A DNA stretch of 35,344 bases from Verrucomicrobiota bacterium (lineage in GTDB: Bacteria > Verrucomicrobiota > Verrucomicrobiia > Limisphaerales > SIBE01): assembly GCA_016871535.1 (NCBI GenBank), contig VHCZ01000038.1, forward strand, positions 1 through 35,344, written 5' to 3'. Positions 8,250 to 24,872 of this stretch are shown here, piece by piece (positions within the stretch are counted from its first letter, which is position 1; the number at the start of each line of letters is the position of its first letter). The translations under genes were made by a program, and so were the position numbers. The notes beneath the pieces were generated by a model. That model was not told the DNA's origin. It did no database searches and was given only the letters and a program-made list of their open reading frames with translations.

Positions 8250-9182
8250 ATGCAGTTTATCCGCGACATCTACGCCGCCAAGCAAGCCAGCAATCGCCCG
8301 GTGATTTCCTTTGAATTCTTTCCGCCGAAAACGGAGGAAGGCGACCGGAACCTGCTGGAGAAAACCATCCCTGCGTTGAAACAACTTCAACCCGATTTCT
8401 GCTCGGTCACGTACGGCGCCGGCGGCAGCACGCGGGAGAAGACGTTGATGATCGTGGACCGCATTCAGCGGACCCACGGGATCACGGGCATGGCCCATTT
8501 GACCTGCGTCGGCTCGACCAGCCAGCAAATCGGCGAAGCGCTGGAGCAGGCCCGAGCGCTTGGAATCAAGAACATCCTGGCCTTGCGCGGCGATCCGCCC
8601 GGCGGCATGGGCGAATTCAAGAAAACTGAAGGCGGCTTCGAGTTTTCGTATCAACTGGTCCAGTTCATCCGGCAAACGGGCGGCTTTTCCATCGGCACGG
8701 CGGGGTTTCCGGAAGGCCACATCGCCTGCAAGGAAGGCAAGCAGGTCGATTGGGAGCGATTGAAAGCCAAGATCGATTGCGGCGCCGACTTTGTTATCAC
8801 CCAACTTTTCTTCGACAACGCGGACTTCTTTGTCTTCCGCGAATACATGGTGAAGAAGCTCGGCGTGACGGTCTCCATTACGCCCGGCATTCTGCCCATC
8901 CTGAGCGCCGCCCAGGTGAAGCGGTTTACGGAGATGTGCGGCGCGCGCATGCCGGCGCCGCTGCTCGCGCGGCTGGAGCCTTTGCGGGACAATGACGAGG
9001 CGGCGACCGAGTTTGGGATCGAGTACGCGACGAGACAGTGCGAAGAACTCCTGCGCGAAGGCGTGCCTGGGCTTCACATTTACACGTTGAATAAAGCTCG
9101 CTCCGCGACGCAAGTGCTGAAAAACTTGGGCCTGGCGTATCAAGTGGCTCGATCGCGCCTGCCAACCGGCGCAGCTTACTGA
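8250..9182 (+). CDS. metF: 5,10-methylenetetrahydrofolate reductase
   Basis: A 310-aa cytosolic flavoprotein of the MetF family, which reduces 5,10-methylene-THF to 5-methyl-THF with NAD(P)H to supply methyl groups for methionine synthesis. Family motifs are clear: ISFEFFPPKTEEG near the N-terminus, VTYGAGGSTREKT, HLTCVGST, NILALRGDPPGG, DFVITQLFFDNADF, and ITPGILPILS. The start at 8250 (MQFIRDIY) is chosen because a -10 box ends 7 nt upstream; ATG 8241 would add three residues. E. coli MetF has 296 residues and usually ends soon after the LKNLGL-like helix; here 15 or so extra residues lead to a stop codon (TGA 9180-9182) supplied by the inserted MITE, so the native C-terminus has probably been altered. 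Confidence 0.96.
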   Translation: MQFIRDIYAAKQASNRPVISFEFFPPKTEEGDRNLLEKTIPALKQLQPDFCSVTYGAGGSTREKTLMIVDRIQRTHGITGMAHLTCVGSTSQQIGEALEQARALGIKNILALRGDPPGGMGEFKKTEGGFEFSYQLVQFIRQTGGFSIGTAGFPEGHIACKEGKQVDWERLKAKIDCGADFVITQLFFDNADFFVFREYMVKKLGVTVSITPGILPILSAAQVKRFTEMCGARMPAPLLARLEPLRDNDEAATEFGIEYATRQCEELLREGVPGLHIYTLNKARSATQVLKNLGLAYQVARSRLPTGAAY

Positions 9183-9445
9183 TCAGACCGCGGGATAGAA
9201 TACACTTTGCCAGGAGGGATTTTGGCCAGCCGCGAGGAGCGCGCGAGGCGGTGTATCCCTGCGATCCACAACGAGCGAGCGACGAAGCGGCTGGCCAAAA
9301 GACCCCTGGCCCTGCGGGTTGCGCCGCATTTGGGCTCTGGCTTCGTTGCTCCTCAGTCGAAGAATCCACCAGGGATATTCTCCTTCGTCGCGCCTGAGCC
9401 CAAATGCGACGCAACAAAGTGTATTCTATCCCACGGTCTGATCAG
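9179..9445 (+). mobile_element. MITE copy 1, 31-bp terminal inverted repeats, TA duplication
   Basis: A 267-bp element bounded by TA (9177-9178 and 9446-9447). Its ends are inverted repeats of 31 bp with one mismatch, beginning CTGATCAGACCG and ending ATAGAATACACTTTG. The interior carries two large inverted repeats (TTTTGGCCAGC/GCTGGCCAAAA and GCATTTGGGCT/AGCCCAAATGC) and no transposase. A second copy in opposite orientation lies at 23331-23602. The TA duplication and size fit a non-autonomous IS630/Tc1-mariner-type MITE. It supplies the metF stop codon, and the A of its right-hand TA is the first base of the next gene's ATG. Confidence 0.92.
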
Positions 9446-9446
9446 T

Positions 9447-10538
9447 ATGAATCCCTCCGACACGGCTTTCTACGTCACGGGCGGCACGCTGCGGCACGAC
9501 GCGGCGTCGTATGTGGACCGCAAGGCGGACAAGGAATTGCTCGAAGGCCTCGTCAACAGCGAGTTTTGCTACGTGCTCACGTCCCGGCAAATGGGGAAAA
9601 GCTCCATCATGGTGCGCACGGCCAACAAGCTTCGCGCCGGCGGCTTCAAGGTTGTGGTGCTGGACCTCACGGCCATCGGCCAAAATCTGACGCCGGAACA
9701 ATGGTACGATGGTTTGCTGATGCGGCTGGGACGGCAATTGGGCCTGGAACAACAACTGGAGGATTTCTGGAGCACGCGCGACCGCGTCGGCGCCGTGCAA
9801 CGGTTCATGACCGCGATTCATGACGTCGCGCTCGCGACCCTCGCCGGCCCGCTGGTGATTTTCGTGGATGAAATCGACATCGTGCACAGCCTGCCGTTTG
9901 CCACGGACGAATTCTTTGCCGCGATTCGCGAGTGCTACAACCGCCGCGTGGAAGATCCCGCCTTCCAGCGCGTGACCTTTTGTTTGCTCGGGGTCGCGAC
10001 GCCTTCGGAGCTGATTCGCAATCCGCACACCACGCCGTTCAACATCGGCCACCGCATTGAACTCACGGATTTCACCGAGACGGAGGCCGCGCCCCTGGCT
10101 CAGCGGTTGGATGCAGACTCCGGCCAGGCCCAGGCTTATCTCAAGCGCATTCTTTTCTGGACGAACGGCCATCCCTATTTGACCCAGCGCTTGTGCCGTG
10201 CCGTTTTCGAGGAGAAACCCAAACTCAGGCTGACGCTGCAGGACGCGACACCGCTGCAATGCATCGACGATCTTTGCGAACGGCTCTTTCTCTCGCCGCG
10301 GGCGCGCGAGCAGGATGACAATCTGCTCTTCGTTCGGGAACGCATCCTGCGCGTGGAAGTCGATCTCGCCAAGCTGTTGAATCTTTACGAGCAGGTGCAC
10401 CACGAAAACCTGATTCCGGACGACGAAGCTAACGAATATATCAATCAACTGCGGCTCTCCGGCATCATCGCGGCCGACTCGGGCCGATTGAAAGTGCGCA
10501 ACCGAATTTACCGCGAGGTCTTTGATCCACAGTGCTAA
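9447..10538 (+). CDS. AAA_35-type P-loop ATPase, probably lacking a C-terminal effector domain
   Basis: A 363-aa protein of the AAA-like (PF14516, AAA_35) group. Near the N-terminus is YVDRKADKELLEGL, then the P-loop-like SRQMGKSSIMVR, the Walker B VIFVDEIDIV, the HRIELTDFTETEA segment, and the helical NGHPYLTQRLCRAV. A winged-helix-like end follows with the family signature RNRIYREVFD. In relatives this signature is often followed by WD40, TPR or other effector domains; here translation stops three residues later, so the gene is either a short form or truncated. The function is unknown; such ATPases are thought to belong to signalling or conflict systems. The frame is open upstream into the MITE (a TTG at 9207), but ATG 9447 gives the family N-terminus. 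No ribosome-binding site is visible, since everything upstream is MITE. Confidence 0.8.
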   Translation: MNPSDTAFYVTGGTLRHDAASYVDRKADKELLEGLVNSEFCYVLTSRQMGKSSIMVRTANKLRAGGFKVVVLDLTAIGQNLTPEQWYDGLLMRLGRQLGLEQQLEDFWSTRDRVGAVQRFMTAIHDVALATLAGPLVIFVDEIDIVHSLPFATDEFFAAIRECYNRRVEDPAFQRVTFCLLGVATPSELIRNPHTTPFNIGHRIELTDFTETEAAPLAQRLDADSGQAQAYLKRILFWTNGHPYLTQRLCRAVFEEKPKLRLTLQDATPLQCIDDLCERLFLSPRAREQDDNLLFVRERILRVEVDLAKLLNLYEQVHHENLIPDDEANEYINQLRLSGIIAADSGRLKVRNRIYREVFDPQC

Positions 10539-20726: not shown

Positions 20727-21125
20727 CCCTATGAAGAAAGCACCCCAAACAGCGAGACACGACTTTCACGAATTAATTTAAGGGTCTGTGCAGACCGTGG
20801 GATTGACGACAGATCGACCGGAGAACCGTAGCGCAGATTTTCAATCTGCTGTATCGCCGATTTCCAATCGGCAGGGCGCCGGCAAGTCCCAGCGGGCTCG
20901 GACTGGGAGACGCCCCGCAGAATACAATTCTGCGCTACGGCAGAGTGCAACTCTGCGCTACGAGCTTTGTCGTCCATCCGCGGACCAAGCAGTAACACGA
21001 TTTGAAGTTACGTTCAGAATCCGTGATAATTCGTGCAATTCGTGTCTCGAGAAAGACTGGCGTCGTTGGATCTGCGTTGATCCGCGTCCATCTGCGGTTT
21101 CGAGGCCTTTCGCGTAACGCTAAAT
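20727..21125. other. Repeat-filled gap downstream of uvrA
   Basis: No gene is supported. The gap holds a four-hairpin element (20827-20962) and degenerate ATCCGTG/ATCTGCG-type units from about 21018 to 21105. It separates the end of uvrA from the end of the convergent zinc-ribbon gene. Confidence 0.6.
20827..20962. repeat. Four-hairpin element, copy 2
   Basis: CGTAGC; GCAGATT-ttc-AATCTGC; GTATCG; GCCGATT-tcc-AATCGGC; spacer; GCAGAAT-aca-ATTCTGC; CTACGG; GCAGAGT-gca-ACTCTGC; GCTACG. Relative to the copy at 7949-8087, hairpins 2 and 3 have changed on both sides of the stem so that pairing is kept. Confidence 0.85.
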
Positions 21126-21612: not shown

Positions 21613-23052
21613 ATGAATCTTTCCCTGTGTTCCGTTCGTTTCGTGGTGTTCGGACTCATGCTGTCGATTCCGGCGTTCGCAGCAACGGTTGAACCGATCC
21701 TTGGCTTCAGTCCCGCCGCCGCCGAACGTCAACGCGCGTTGGAAGCGAAATTCGACGCGCAGCTTGACCCCCTTTTGCTCTCGGAATGGATGAAGCGGCT
21801 CGCGGCGAAGCCGAATCACGTCGGGTCCACGCACGTGAAGGCGAATGCCGAATTCATCGCCGCGCAGTTCCGTTCCTGGGGTTTCGATAACGTCGTGGCC
21901 AGGCTGCGCGGGCGCGAGCGCCCGGACCAATGGATCATCCGGGGCAATCATCACGACGCCTGGGTGTTCGGCGCGGAAGACCCGCTCAGTGGTTTGGTGG
22001 CGTTGATGGCGGAGGCCCGAGCCATCGGGCTTCTGGCCAGGGAAGGTTGGGCGCCAAGGCGCACCCTGATTTTCACGGCCTGGGATGCGGAGGAACCCGG
22101 ACTGCTGGGGTCGACCGAATGGGCCGAGACGCACGCGAAGGAACTTCGCGAGCATGCCGCGATTTACATCAACTCCGACAACAGCGGGCGCGGCTTCCTG
22201 CGCGTCGGCGGTTCGCACACGCTGGAAAAATGGATCAACGGCATCGCGCGCGACGTGATCGATCCGCAAAAAGGAATTCCGGTCGCCGAACGGCTGCGCG
22301 CCTTCCGCTTGATCAACGGCACAGCGGAAGATCGGCGTGACGCGCAACATCGCGCGGACCTTCGCATTGGGGCGCTGGGTTCCGGATCGGACTACACGCC
22401 ATTCCTCCAGCATCTCGGCATCGCTTCGCTCGATATCCGGTACCAAGGCGAGAATCGCGGCGGGTCTTACCATTCGATCTACGACTCGTTCGATCACTAC
22501 GCCCGATTCGGTGATCCCGGCTTTCAATATGGCATCGCTCTGGCGAAAACCGCCGGGCGCGCAGTGCTTCGCAGCGCGCAGGCCAACTTCCTGCCCTTCG
22601 AGTTTTCAAATTTTTTGGAAACGGTCCGCCGGTTTGCCAGAGACGTAGTGAAACTTGCCGACGACACGCGGGAAGAAACGCAGCGGCACAACCGCCTGGT
22701 CGGACAGCGCCAATTCGAGAAAGCCGCCGACCCGCGCGAACCCTTCGTGGCGCCGCGCCTGAAATCCCCGGTGCCGCATTTCAACTTCTCGCCCCTGCAC
22801 AATGCTCTGGATCGTCTGGAGACAGCGGTGCGCCAGTTCGAGTCCGTCCTCCAAAAGCGCACTCAACCGGAGTGGCAGCTTGACGCGGAGTCCGAGGCAA
22901 AGCTCGACAGTCTGCTCAAGGAGATCGAACGCGCGCTGACGTCCGAAGAAGGATTGCCACGCCGTCCGTGGTATCGGCATCTTGTCTATGCGCCGGGAGC
23001 TTACACAGGCTACGGCGTCAAGACGCTCCCAGGGACCCAAATCCTCGCCTAA
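21613..23052 (+). CDS. GCPII-like M28 zinc peptidase lacking the PA domain, 3' end cut by an inserted element
   Basis: A 479-aa exported protein with a signal peptide (SVRFVVFGLMLSIPAFA). Metal-site motifs match glutamate carboxypeptidase II/PSMA: GNHHDAWVFGAEDP, FTAWDAEEPGLLGSTEWAE (catalytic Glu), YINSDNSG, LGSGSDYTPFLQHLGIAS and YHSIYDSFDHY. A transferrin-receptor-like dimerisation domain follows, ending at WYRHLVYAPGAYTGYG. Two oddities: near 21887, FRSWGFD joins directly to NVVARLRG, although in the family about 200 residues containing the PA domain lie between; and after LPG (23032-23034) the frame enters a 163-bp inserted element and stops eight residues later. The lost 42 codons are still present at 23204-23330. 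The active site is intact but the C-terminal helices are missing, so activity is doubtful. Confidence 0.88.
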   Translation: MNLSLCSVRFVVFGLMLSIPAFAATVEPILGFSPAAAERQRALEAKFDAQLDPLLLSEWMKRLAAKPNHVGSTHVKANAEFIAAQFRSWGFDNVVARLRGRERPDQWIIRGNHHDAWVFGAEDPLSGLVALMAEARAIGLLAREGWAPRRTLIFTAWDAEEPGLLGSTEWAETHAKELREHAAIYINSDNSGRGFLRVGGSHTLEKWINGIARDVIDPQKGIPVAERLRAFRLINGTAEDRRDAQHRADLRIGALGSGSDYTPFLQHLGIASLDIRYQGENRGGSYHSIYDSFDHYARFGDPGFQYGIALAKTAGRAVLRSAQANFLPFEFSNFLETVRRFARDVVKLADDTREETQRHNRLVGQRQFEKAADPREPFVAPRLKSPVPHFNFSPLHNALDRLETAVRQFESVLQKRTQPEWQLDAESEAKLDSLLKEIERALTSEEGLPRRPWYRHLVYAPGAYTGYGVKTLPGTQILA

Positions 23053-23198
23053 GGATTTTGAAAACGAGTCTTGAGCCGGTGGGCGTGGCATTTTCGATAG
23101 ACGCGATTCAATACGAAATCTATTGAACCGCGACGTTGGCACGCCCCGAACTGGCCGCATCGCAAGGATGGTTTTGAAGATTTAGGCGAGGAACATGG
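23036..23198. mobile_element. 163-bp inserted element with inverted ends and AGGGA duplication
   Basis: AGGGA occurs directly before (23031-23035) and directly after (23199-23203) the element. Its ends carry an imperfect inverted repeat: TCCTCGCCTAAGGATTTTG on the left matches the complement of CAAAATCTTC-type right-end sequence (GGTTTTGAAGATTTAGGCG, then AGGA). There is no coding capacity. Removing the element and one AGGGA restores the peptidase frame to LPG-IREAIEERRW, which matches the expected C-terminal region of the family. Confidence 0.82.
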
Positions 23199-23203
23199 AG
23201 GGA

Positions 23204-23330
23204 TACGCGAAGCCATCGAGGAACGCCGTTGGGAAGAAGTGGACCCGCAAACCGTCCGTGTGGCCCTGGCGGTGGAAAGATGCGCGGAAATTTTGGATCG
23301 GGGGAGAACCGAAGTGCTGGCGAACCAGTA
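23204..23330 (+). pseudogene. Detached 3' end of the M28 peptidase gene
   Basis: After the AGGGA repeat, the frame reads REAIEERRWEEVDPQTV, then RVALAVERCAEILDRGR, then TEVLANQ. This fits the last helices of the GCPII/TfR dimerisation domain. The native stop was TAA: its T and A are 23329-23330 and its last A is now 23605, on the far side of the second MITE. No start codon or ribosome-binding site serves this piece, so it is not expected to be translated. Confidence 0.78.
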
Positions 23331-23602
23331 CTGATCAGACCGTGGGATAGAATACACTTTGTTGCGTCGCATTTGGGCTCTGGCTCAGGCGCGACGAAGG
23401 AGAATGTCCCTGGTGGATCTTCGACTGAGGAGCAACGAAGCCAGATCCCAAATGCGACGCAACCCGCAGGGCCAGGGGTCTTTTGGCCCGCCGCTTCGTC
23501 GCTCGCTCGTTGTGGATCGCAGGGATACACCGCCTCGCGCGCTCCTCGCCGCTGGCCAAAATCCCTCCTGGCAAAGTGTATTCTATCCCACGGTCTGATC
23601 AG
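23331..23602 (-). mobile_element. MITE copy 2, perfect 31-bp terminal inverted repeats, TA duplication
   Basis: A 272-bp element flanked by TA on both sides (23329-23330, 23603-23604). Its 31-bp ends begin CTGATCAGACCG and match each other perfectly. The interior is the reverse complement of the copy at 9179-9445, with few differences and a few extra bases. It sits exactly in the former TAA stop codon of the M28 peptidase gene; reading across the junction gives TAC TGA, so a stop reappears one codon later. Confidence 0.92.
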
Positions 23603-23651
23603 TAAGCAATGGCGGCGATGTTTCAACAGGAGGGAAGAGAGGCGCCAGAGT

Positions 23652-24872
23652 TCAACGACCTCGGAGTTCGTGGTCTGGCGCCGAAGTCCCCTCGTGGATG
23701 AGTCGGAGTGAACTCGGCGGCGTCGGCGGCGGCAAGGGGACGCGCTTCCAACCTTCCAGGCCAAGTCCGATGTCTCTTTCGACGAATTCCCAGAGAACCA
23801 CCTTTTTGTCCTTAAGAAATGCGGGACGTCCACGCAACTCCTGCCGCACCAGCGTGGATCCGCCGCCGTCATTCACCAACGCCAGCACCGGTTGTTTGAG
23901 TTCCTTGGCCAGGTGCGCGATGAAACCCGCCGCTTTCGGCTCGTCGGTTTGATAGACCCGCACGAAACTGTCGCCCAACACCAGAATCTCCGCATCCGGC
24001 GCGTCCTTGTAGAGATCGCCGTCGTCTCGACGCACCACCTGGAGGCATGGGACGGTTTCGGGGCGGATGCGCCGCTCGATCCTCGGCACTTGCATCATGC
24101 GCAAGATGTCGCCCAATCGCTGCACCGGCGCGGGCTTCTCGGTGTATTCAACCTGGCCAGGCTGCGCCCAGCCTAATTCAAGGAGACGCCGCGCTACGGT
24201 TTTGGCCGCGAGCGCGACTCCGGCCGGCGACCAATGCGTATCTTGCGCCAGATACAACGAAGCCTGGGAATTGGCACCCGCCTGCTCCCGCGCGTCGCCA
24301 AACGCCTGGAAAAGATCGATGATTTCGACGTTTGCCGCGCGAAGCTTCTCCAGCACCTCTCTCGTTCGTGGCGCCAGCACGCCGCGGCCAGGCTCAGCCC
24401 GTGAAGTCAGTTGATCCGGGTAAATGCTTTCCTTGTTCGGCACCGGCAGGAGCGCAAGCCGGATGCCGCGCGCCGCCAGTTGATCGTGAAAATCCACGAT
24501 GGCGGCGACCGGATCATTCGTGACGCCTGCGGTGATCGCGTTCTCAGGCCGAGCCAGCATGTAACTCAGTCCGGGTTTGTAGAAATACCAGCCCGCCGAA
24601 CCGATGGCGGCCTTTTCTCCGCCATCGTTCAGCCAGGCGAACTGGGCGAACTGAATCCAGGGCCGCGTTGCTCGCGCCGCCCAATTGCCGGCTTCCAGGT
24701 TTCGCTCGTAAGCGCGCAGATGGGCCGCGGTGGGCGGCTGGTTGAAGAGCTCGAAGGCGTGAATTCCGTCGTCCTGGCGCGCTTCGATCACGATTTGAAT
24801 CAACGGCACGGCGACGAGGATCCCAAGAAAGATCAGGATCAAGCACCATTGAGGATCGCGAAGGCGGCTCAT
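23652..24872 (-). CDS. AlgJ/AlgX-like SGNH-type acetyltransferase partner protein
   Basis: About 406 aa. An N-terminal membrane anchor (CLILIFLGILVAVPLIQIVI) places the rest outside the cytoplasmic membrane. The catalytic-type motifs of the AlgJ/AlgX (SGNH hydrolase-like) family are present: DTHWSPAGVALAA (Asp-x2-His block) and EILVLGDSFVRVYQ (nucleophile Ser). A Pro-rich tail (LPPPTPPSSL) ends the protein. Such proteins transfer acetyl groups delivered by an MBOAT partner to an exported polysaccharide. The MBOAT gene lies directly upstream; its TGA at 24879-24881 touches a GTG (24878), and the ATG used here is at 24872, so the two are surely cotranscribed. The acylated polymer is not identifiable; no other alginate genes are nearby. 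Confidence 0.85.
   Translation of the reverse strand: MSRLRDPQWCLILIFLGILVAVPLIQIVIEARQDDGIHAFELFNQPPTAAHLRAYERNLEAGNWAARATRPWIQFAQFAWLNDGGEKAAIGSAGWYFYKPGLSYMLARPENAITAGVTNDPVAAIVDFHDQLAARGIRLALLPVPNKESIYPDQLTSRAEPGRGVLAPRTREVLEKLRAANVEIIDLFQAFGDAREQAGANSQASLYLAQDTHWSPAGVALAAKTVARRLLELGWAQPGQVEYTEKPAPVQRLGDILRMMQVPRIERRIRPETVPCLQVVRRDDGDLYKDAPDAEILVLGDSFVRVYQTDEPKAAGFIAHLAKELKQPVLALVNDGGGSTLVRQELRGRPAFLKDKKVVLWEFVERDIGLGLEGWKRVPLPPPTPPSSLRLIHEGTSAPDHELRGR

Follow-up and report, generated by a model that had tools for sequence, protein, structure and literature searches.

Small mobile repeats that provide a gene with its stop codon are known from pneumococcus, where they were described in a report on BOX elements that is said to come from Croucher and colleagues. 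In Streptococcus pneumoniae the stop codon was found inside a BOX element in 36 genes, for which the accessible text of the report gives no strong evidence of truncated products (PMC3049150). QMITE1 and QMITE2 of Coxiella burnetii extend over 1 to 50 bp at the end of functional genes, and every affected functional annotated gene was, according to the accessible part of that paper, struck at its 3' end (PMC5896051). An RU-1 element at the end of an amidase gene is described in the excerpted text as having removed the normal stop codon and lengthened the protein (PMC2759123). A word search of a 2024 review of prokaryotic MITEs did not find the words "stop codon" (PMC10969869), and stop-restoring ends were not found as a main topic in titles or opening abstracts in a search limited to open-licence papers.

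The window analyzed here, a stretch of 35,344 nucleotides, is contig C38, one of 460 in a draft genome of 6.67 Mb, probably from an environmental bacterium of Verrucomicrobia type. The assembly is of the metagenome type, genes were called with a simple gene finder of our own and not taken from a curated annotation, and the counts are small. An Rfam scan of the whole window gave no match. Joining of the flanks confirmed that a MITE of a family termed A landed in the TA of the TAA stop codon of an M28 peptidase gene, with the following features:

21613 to 23052, plus strand: M28 peptidase with a transferrin-receptor-like dimerisation domain, a remaining frame of 479 codons with the 3' end cut by element 1 (Pfam Peptidase_M28 2e-18, TFR_dimer 3e-17; orthologue G001:C384, 88% at the amino acid level)
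21886 to 21891, plus strand: junction of an in-frame deletion of 239 codons relative to genome G001, between SWGFD and NVVARL (orthologue alignment)
23036 to 23198, no strand: element 1, 163 bp, of a family other than A, with AGGGA duplicated at 23031-23035 and 23199-23203 (sequence)
23200 to 23328, plus strand: detached 3' end of the peptidase, 43 codons GIREAI...LANQ (translation, orthologue alignment)
23329 to 23334, plus strand: TAC TGA, formed by the first TA of the former stop and the MITE end, TGA being the regenerated stop (sequence, translation)
23331 to 23602, no strand: family A MITE, 272 bp, with terminal inverted repeats CTGATCAGACCGTGGGATAGAATACAC and TA at 23329-23330 and 23603-23604 (sequence, end searches, fold)
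23603 to 23605, plus strand: second TA plus A, remnant of the original TAA stop (sequence, empty-site reconstruction)

An earlier note on this DNA had read the detached 3' end as ANQ followed by TAA once the MITE is removed, with the first two bases of the stop as the TA target, and the flanks bear this out. GCG AAC CAG TA closes the left flank and TA AGC opens the right one; joined at a single TA, they give ...GCG AAC CAG TAA GC as the uninterrupted site. From 23200 to 23340 a single frame reads GIREAIEERRWEEVDPQTVRVALAVERCAEILDRGRTEVLANQ and then TAC TGA. Since both family A ends start CTGATCAG, TA followed by CTGA reads TAC TGA, i.e., one extra Tyr codon and then a stop, and the claim that the MITE end regenerates a stop one codon later was upheld by sequence and translation. 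The orthologue in G001, a genome of the same genus, has the tail in the same frame, with 45 codons compared to 43 in the window, ending ...VLASARE TGA. Because of this match, TAA was either the natural stop of the peptidase or at most two codons away from it. The detached tail is 84% identical to that of G001, a level like that of the rest of the gene.

The observation that two different elements, element 1 (23036-23198) and the family A MITE, lie within the last 45 or so codons of the peptidase also holds, but in addition the gene lacks 239 codons relative to G001. As read from the DNA and the orthologue alignment, the peptidase is altered in two ways besides the MITE, by element 1 and by this deletion. 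Judged by position, the missing codons presumably form the protease-associated region, which precedes the catalytic domain. Element 1 has a second copy at locus L098, which is 99.4% identical over 168 bp. Since element 1 and the deletion already alter the gene, it cannot be claimed that the regenerated stop rescued the peptidase; the family A insertion probably did no harm anyway, with element 1 and the deletion damaging the gene before or later. The MITE has a predicted fold of -162.9 kcal/mol (z -12.1). No promoter or terminator was found in a scan of 23000-23900, and a "stop plus terminator" module was rejected because that scan gave no terminator, although the transcript would fold strongly.

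Family A elements are short, multi-copy and bounded by terminal inverted repeats, as is characteristic of MITEs. The 17-base end had 57 matches in the genome at up to one mismatch, compared to none for a reversed-pattern control, and 11 two-ended copies were found in the stretches examined; the 50-base inverted ends are 84% complementary. TA flanked both sides of all 11 two-ended copies in a search whose pattern required TA. Host repeats lacking family B, or resembling the site of an A copy, were by eye found to carry a single TA, and TA is therefore taken as the duplicated target. The 272 bp would leave no space for a transposase, and the open reading frames within the element are of 79 amino acids. 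The TA duplication agrees with mobilisation of the MITE by an IS630/Tc1-mariner element, whereas a search of the genome for an IS630-type transposase with family A ends, the expected autonomous relative, gave none. The sole DDE_3 gene in the genome has AATACACTAACGTATT... as its best inverted ends, which are unlike family A, and an IS630-type transposase was rejected as the family A mobiliser because this lone copy has non-matching ends. An autonomous partner of family A would carry the end CTGATCAGACCGTGGGA.

One-ended copies, which show one flank only, make up 34 of the 45 family A loci. Most A loci (L060-L096, e.g., L066:9146, L078:8953, and L096:6472) consist of one perfect end of 17 to about 215 bp followed by unrelated sequence, and the part kept in the one-ended loci has hardly diverged. 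The one at L095:13141 has a visible microhomology join with a host repeat. At least eight one-ended copies were by eye found to have family B interiors, and an A end with a B interior is seen at L083:146, L086:8848, L088:9028, L090:9079, and L091:9222; such copies may be hybrids or ancestral forms. Selection for keeping a one-ended A end that faces the 3' end of a gene was rejected, since the counts, made by eye, were not clearly different from those of two-ended copies. The 13-base family A end was present in 6 of 97 related genomes, the window's own genome included, and G001 and G002, both of the same genus, have one-ended family A pieces. A wider scan of contigs gave four stretches, from the G001 record (Verrucomicrobia), a Verrucomicrobiales MAG, another bacterium, and Pseudomonas, of which the last two by eye look like chance matches. 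At L061:8833-9103 and L128:1884-2095, elements of families A and B occupy the same TA within one small palindrome (AAGCGGCATAAATGCCGC), possibly an insertion hot spot.

The window holds a second family A copy, located at the end of metF:

8250 to 9182, plus strand: metF (methylenetetrahydrofolate reductase) frame, with TAC TGA as its last codons, within the second A copy (TIGR00676 1.8e-93; orthologue ends)
9179 to 9445, no strand: second family A copy, with TA at 9177-9178 and 9446-9447, immediately upstream of the ATG with which the following gene starts (end searches)

Within 8250-9447, the copy ends one base before this ATG. The G001 orthologue closes with TAA, a codon that is TAT in the window, 13 codons before the stop of the element, and without the element the metF frame would reach a length of 434 codons and overlap the following gene in a different frame. 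As the frames are read, metF has no nearby stop other than that of the second A copy, and the simplest interpretation would be that metF could do without its old stop once the element had brought one.

Family A copies were also found on the exact stops of genes that appear intact, at L070, L083, and L065 (minus strand). For the Gfo/Idh oxidoreductase at L070, all four close orthologues (G001, G002, G003, and G004) end after the residue at which the MITE starts. The TraB/GumN gene at L083 stops at the same residue in G001 and within about one residue in G002, while it is longer in G003. The empty site of the glycosyltransferase-TPR gene on the minus strand at L065 gives TAA, and G002 stops about three residues earlier. 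Two other genes run into the A end in a different register, which adds the tail TDQTVG before a stop: those for nicotinate phosphoribosyltransferase (L065, plus strand) and for FolK (L079), both with complete domains.

Family B, which has one copy in the window, differs from family A in that its ends do not restore a stop:

20786 to 20992, plus strand: family B MITE copy, the ends CTGTGCAG / CTGCTTGG of which give no stop in the stop register (end searches)

The left flank of this copy is without the usual TA (GGGT), and the copy is flanked by a 23-base inverted repeat at 20753-20775 and 21027-21049. At least four further MITE families, D, E, F, and G, were seen at L067, L083, L085, L104, and other loci; they are about 265-273 bp where two-ended, and some are nested beside each other. 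Identical T-N-A duplications on both sides were found for 13 of 14 two-ended copies of family E and for 4 of 6 of family D, while F is without a two-ended copy; by the subgroup rule for IS5-type MITEs, the T-N-A duplication would place families D, E, and F among these. With this duplication, family E copies the whole stop when it is located on TAA or TGA, and three of its ends are exactly on the stops of predicted genes (L075, L085, and L110). In families D, E, and F, TA followed by G gives TAG. The family D element at L125 gives TAG, and the flanks of the gene there, joined either way by eye, give TAA or TAG.

The stretches examined have a G+C content of 60%, and the called genes use TGA 465, TAG 148, and TAA 143 times. 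The background was taken from 12,770 TA sites in element-free stretches, with 9,539 in gene interiors, 2,964 intergenic, and 267 (2.1%) in TAA or TAG stops. The view in the earlier note that such stops should be frequent landing sites of a TA-targeting element is therefore not supported in that form, but the event recurs at other genes, in two cases with orthologues that end on the same residue. Of the TA sites, 75% are in gene interiors, compared to 1 of the 11 family A sites, and the single one is at the base preceding a start codon. The target context is strongly T-TA-A, with TTAA at 5 of 11 A sites and 23 of 46 B sites.

Nulls were drawn from TA sites matched for the two neighbouring bases, and three gene-score cut-offs were used. 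Family A was located at stops at 3 of 11 two-ended sites, or at 2 of 10 without the peptidase site. The figure of 3 in 11 was rejected as proof of enrichment, since one of the three is the peptidase site itself and gene interiors must be excluded. Over all TA sites the flank-matched expectation was 0.50, which gives P 0.011 for the three stop sites, and outside gene interiors it was 1.04; for the two sites left without the peptidase, P was 0.066 to 0.091 over all TA sites. When the stop-restoring families A, D, E, and F were pooled, 135 ends gave seven verified stops (A at L065, L070, and L083; E at L075, L085, and L110; D at L125), compared to 1.65 expected over all TA/TNA sites and 5.35 outside gene interiors (P 0.29). 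Excluded from these hits were the peptidase's own site, metF (other flank TAT), E at L090 (empty site TAT), and F at L094 (one flank only); ends starting CTGTGCAG, which belong to family B, were excluded from the A ends. The count of MITE sites in stop codons that the earlier note had proposed thus exceeds the expectation from all TA sites, for A alone marginally, but not that from TA sites outside gene interiors. Family B had one certain (L234) and one possible (L068) end at a stop among 154 ends, with L225 and L239 excluded as being inside genes and L068 counted as doubtful. One of its 60 two-ended sites was at a stop, while 4.0 to 5.4 were expected outside gene interiors for the 59 tested, P for at most one being 0.025 to 0.085 depending on the gene-score cut-off; a single site at a contig end was excluded (46 of 47 used in the first test, 59 of 60 in the later one).

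There is no clear evidence of active targeting of stop codons in the genome, and insertion into TAA, tolerance at gene ends and purging from gene interiors are likely to account for the pattern without it. A non-autonomous, TA-targeting family A element would transpose into a TA; purifying selection would, judging from the counts, remove copies from gene interiors while intergenic copies persist, and a copy on a stop would persist if a new stop follows soon, as it would for A, D, E, and F. The surviving copies would then, as the counts suggest, be intergenic and now and then be located exactly on stops, with no stop preference needed beyond the T-TA-A type of target context. Against this, the seven verified stops exceed the 1.65 expected over all sites (P 0.0016), so some excess may exist, and from the family B deficit at stops (1 of 60, at TA targets similar to those of A) something beyond placement seems to act, for which selection against lost stops would do. 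A transposase with a preference for stop codons, or for a motif that the ends of genes are rich in, is highly improbable: the T-TA-A context is less frequent in gene interiors than at stops and outside genes, but when context was matched and interiors were excluded the family A excess was not significant (P 0.078 with the peptidase site, 0.19 to 0.29 without it), and family B has a deficit. For the peptidase itself there is an even chance that decay is the whole story, family A having fallen by chance on the disused stop of a gene that element 1 and the deletion had already made a pseudogene. The 239 missing codons and the 43 detached ones agree with this, but element 1 and the deletion may also have come after the A insertion, the tail has kept an identity to G001 like that of the rest of the gene, and decay would leave unexplained why apparently intact genes have insertions at their stops.

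The stop-restoring ends might also be an advantage to the element, in that a cost-free niche at stops, closed to families like B, would aid persistence of A, D, E, and F. Restoring families had 7 of 135 ends at stops compared to 1 or 2 of 154 for family B (Fisher P 0.027 or 0.087; 9 of 135 compared to 2 of 154, P 0.027, with E at L090 and F at L094 kept), and two-ended copies 3 of 11 for A compared to 1 of 60 for B (P 0.011, or 0.053 without the peptidase site), comparisons of small numbers that were devised after seeing the data and are suggestive only. Family B at the stops of L234 and L068 adds a 15-residue tail, YCADRGIDDRSTGEP. An advantage of this kind nevertheless appears rather unlikely, since B is a single non-restoring family, several A-ended copies have B interiors, and stop sites are a minority of the copies in every family. 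The suggestion in the earlier note that insertions recreating a stop are nearly neutral is plausible and fits the contrast with family B, but it leans on these few, post hoc counts and is moot for the peptidase with its element 1 and deletion. It is quite unlikely that several unrelated MITE families independently gained ends or duplications that keep the stop (TA plus CTGA in A, duplication of the stop in E, TAG in D, E, and F), making stops safe landing sites on which some host genes, such as metF, would now depend.

Several known systems are close to family A. Like family A, the BOX elements are short non-autonomous repeats that supply the stop at the extreme 3' end of genes, but they differ in sequence, modular structure and host, and the accessible text does not state that they land inside the stop codon (PMC3049150). 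QMITE1 and QMITE2 are other families with a variable overlap, and an exact stop-codon target is not stated in the accessible part of the paper (PMC5896051). RU-1, RU-2, and RU-3 of enterobacteria are, in the excerpts available, MITE-like with TA duplications, as is family A (PMC2759123, PMC2229807). In the RU-1 case the stop was lost and the protein extended, whereas family A regenerates a stop one codon later; as far as the RU-1 excerpt goes, family B is closer to RU-1 (PMC2759123). RUP of pneumococcus and the IS630-related MITEs share short length, a TA target and terminal inverted repeats with family A in the text available (PMC2229807), but no IS630-type transposase bearing family A ends was found in the genome. 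The peptidase MITE is a clear, orthologue-checked example of how small mobile elements can be placed at gene ends and leave the protein unbroken, and metF suggests that a gene's own stop can decay once an element has added another as a backup. A genome with both restoring and non-restoring MITE families makes it countable whether the end sequence decides where an element survives. MITE-encoded stops have already been published for the pneumococcal BOX elements, and the peptidase case is a known kind of harmless insertion.
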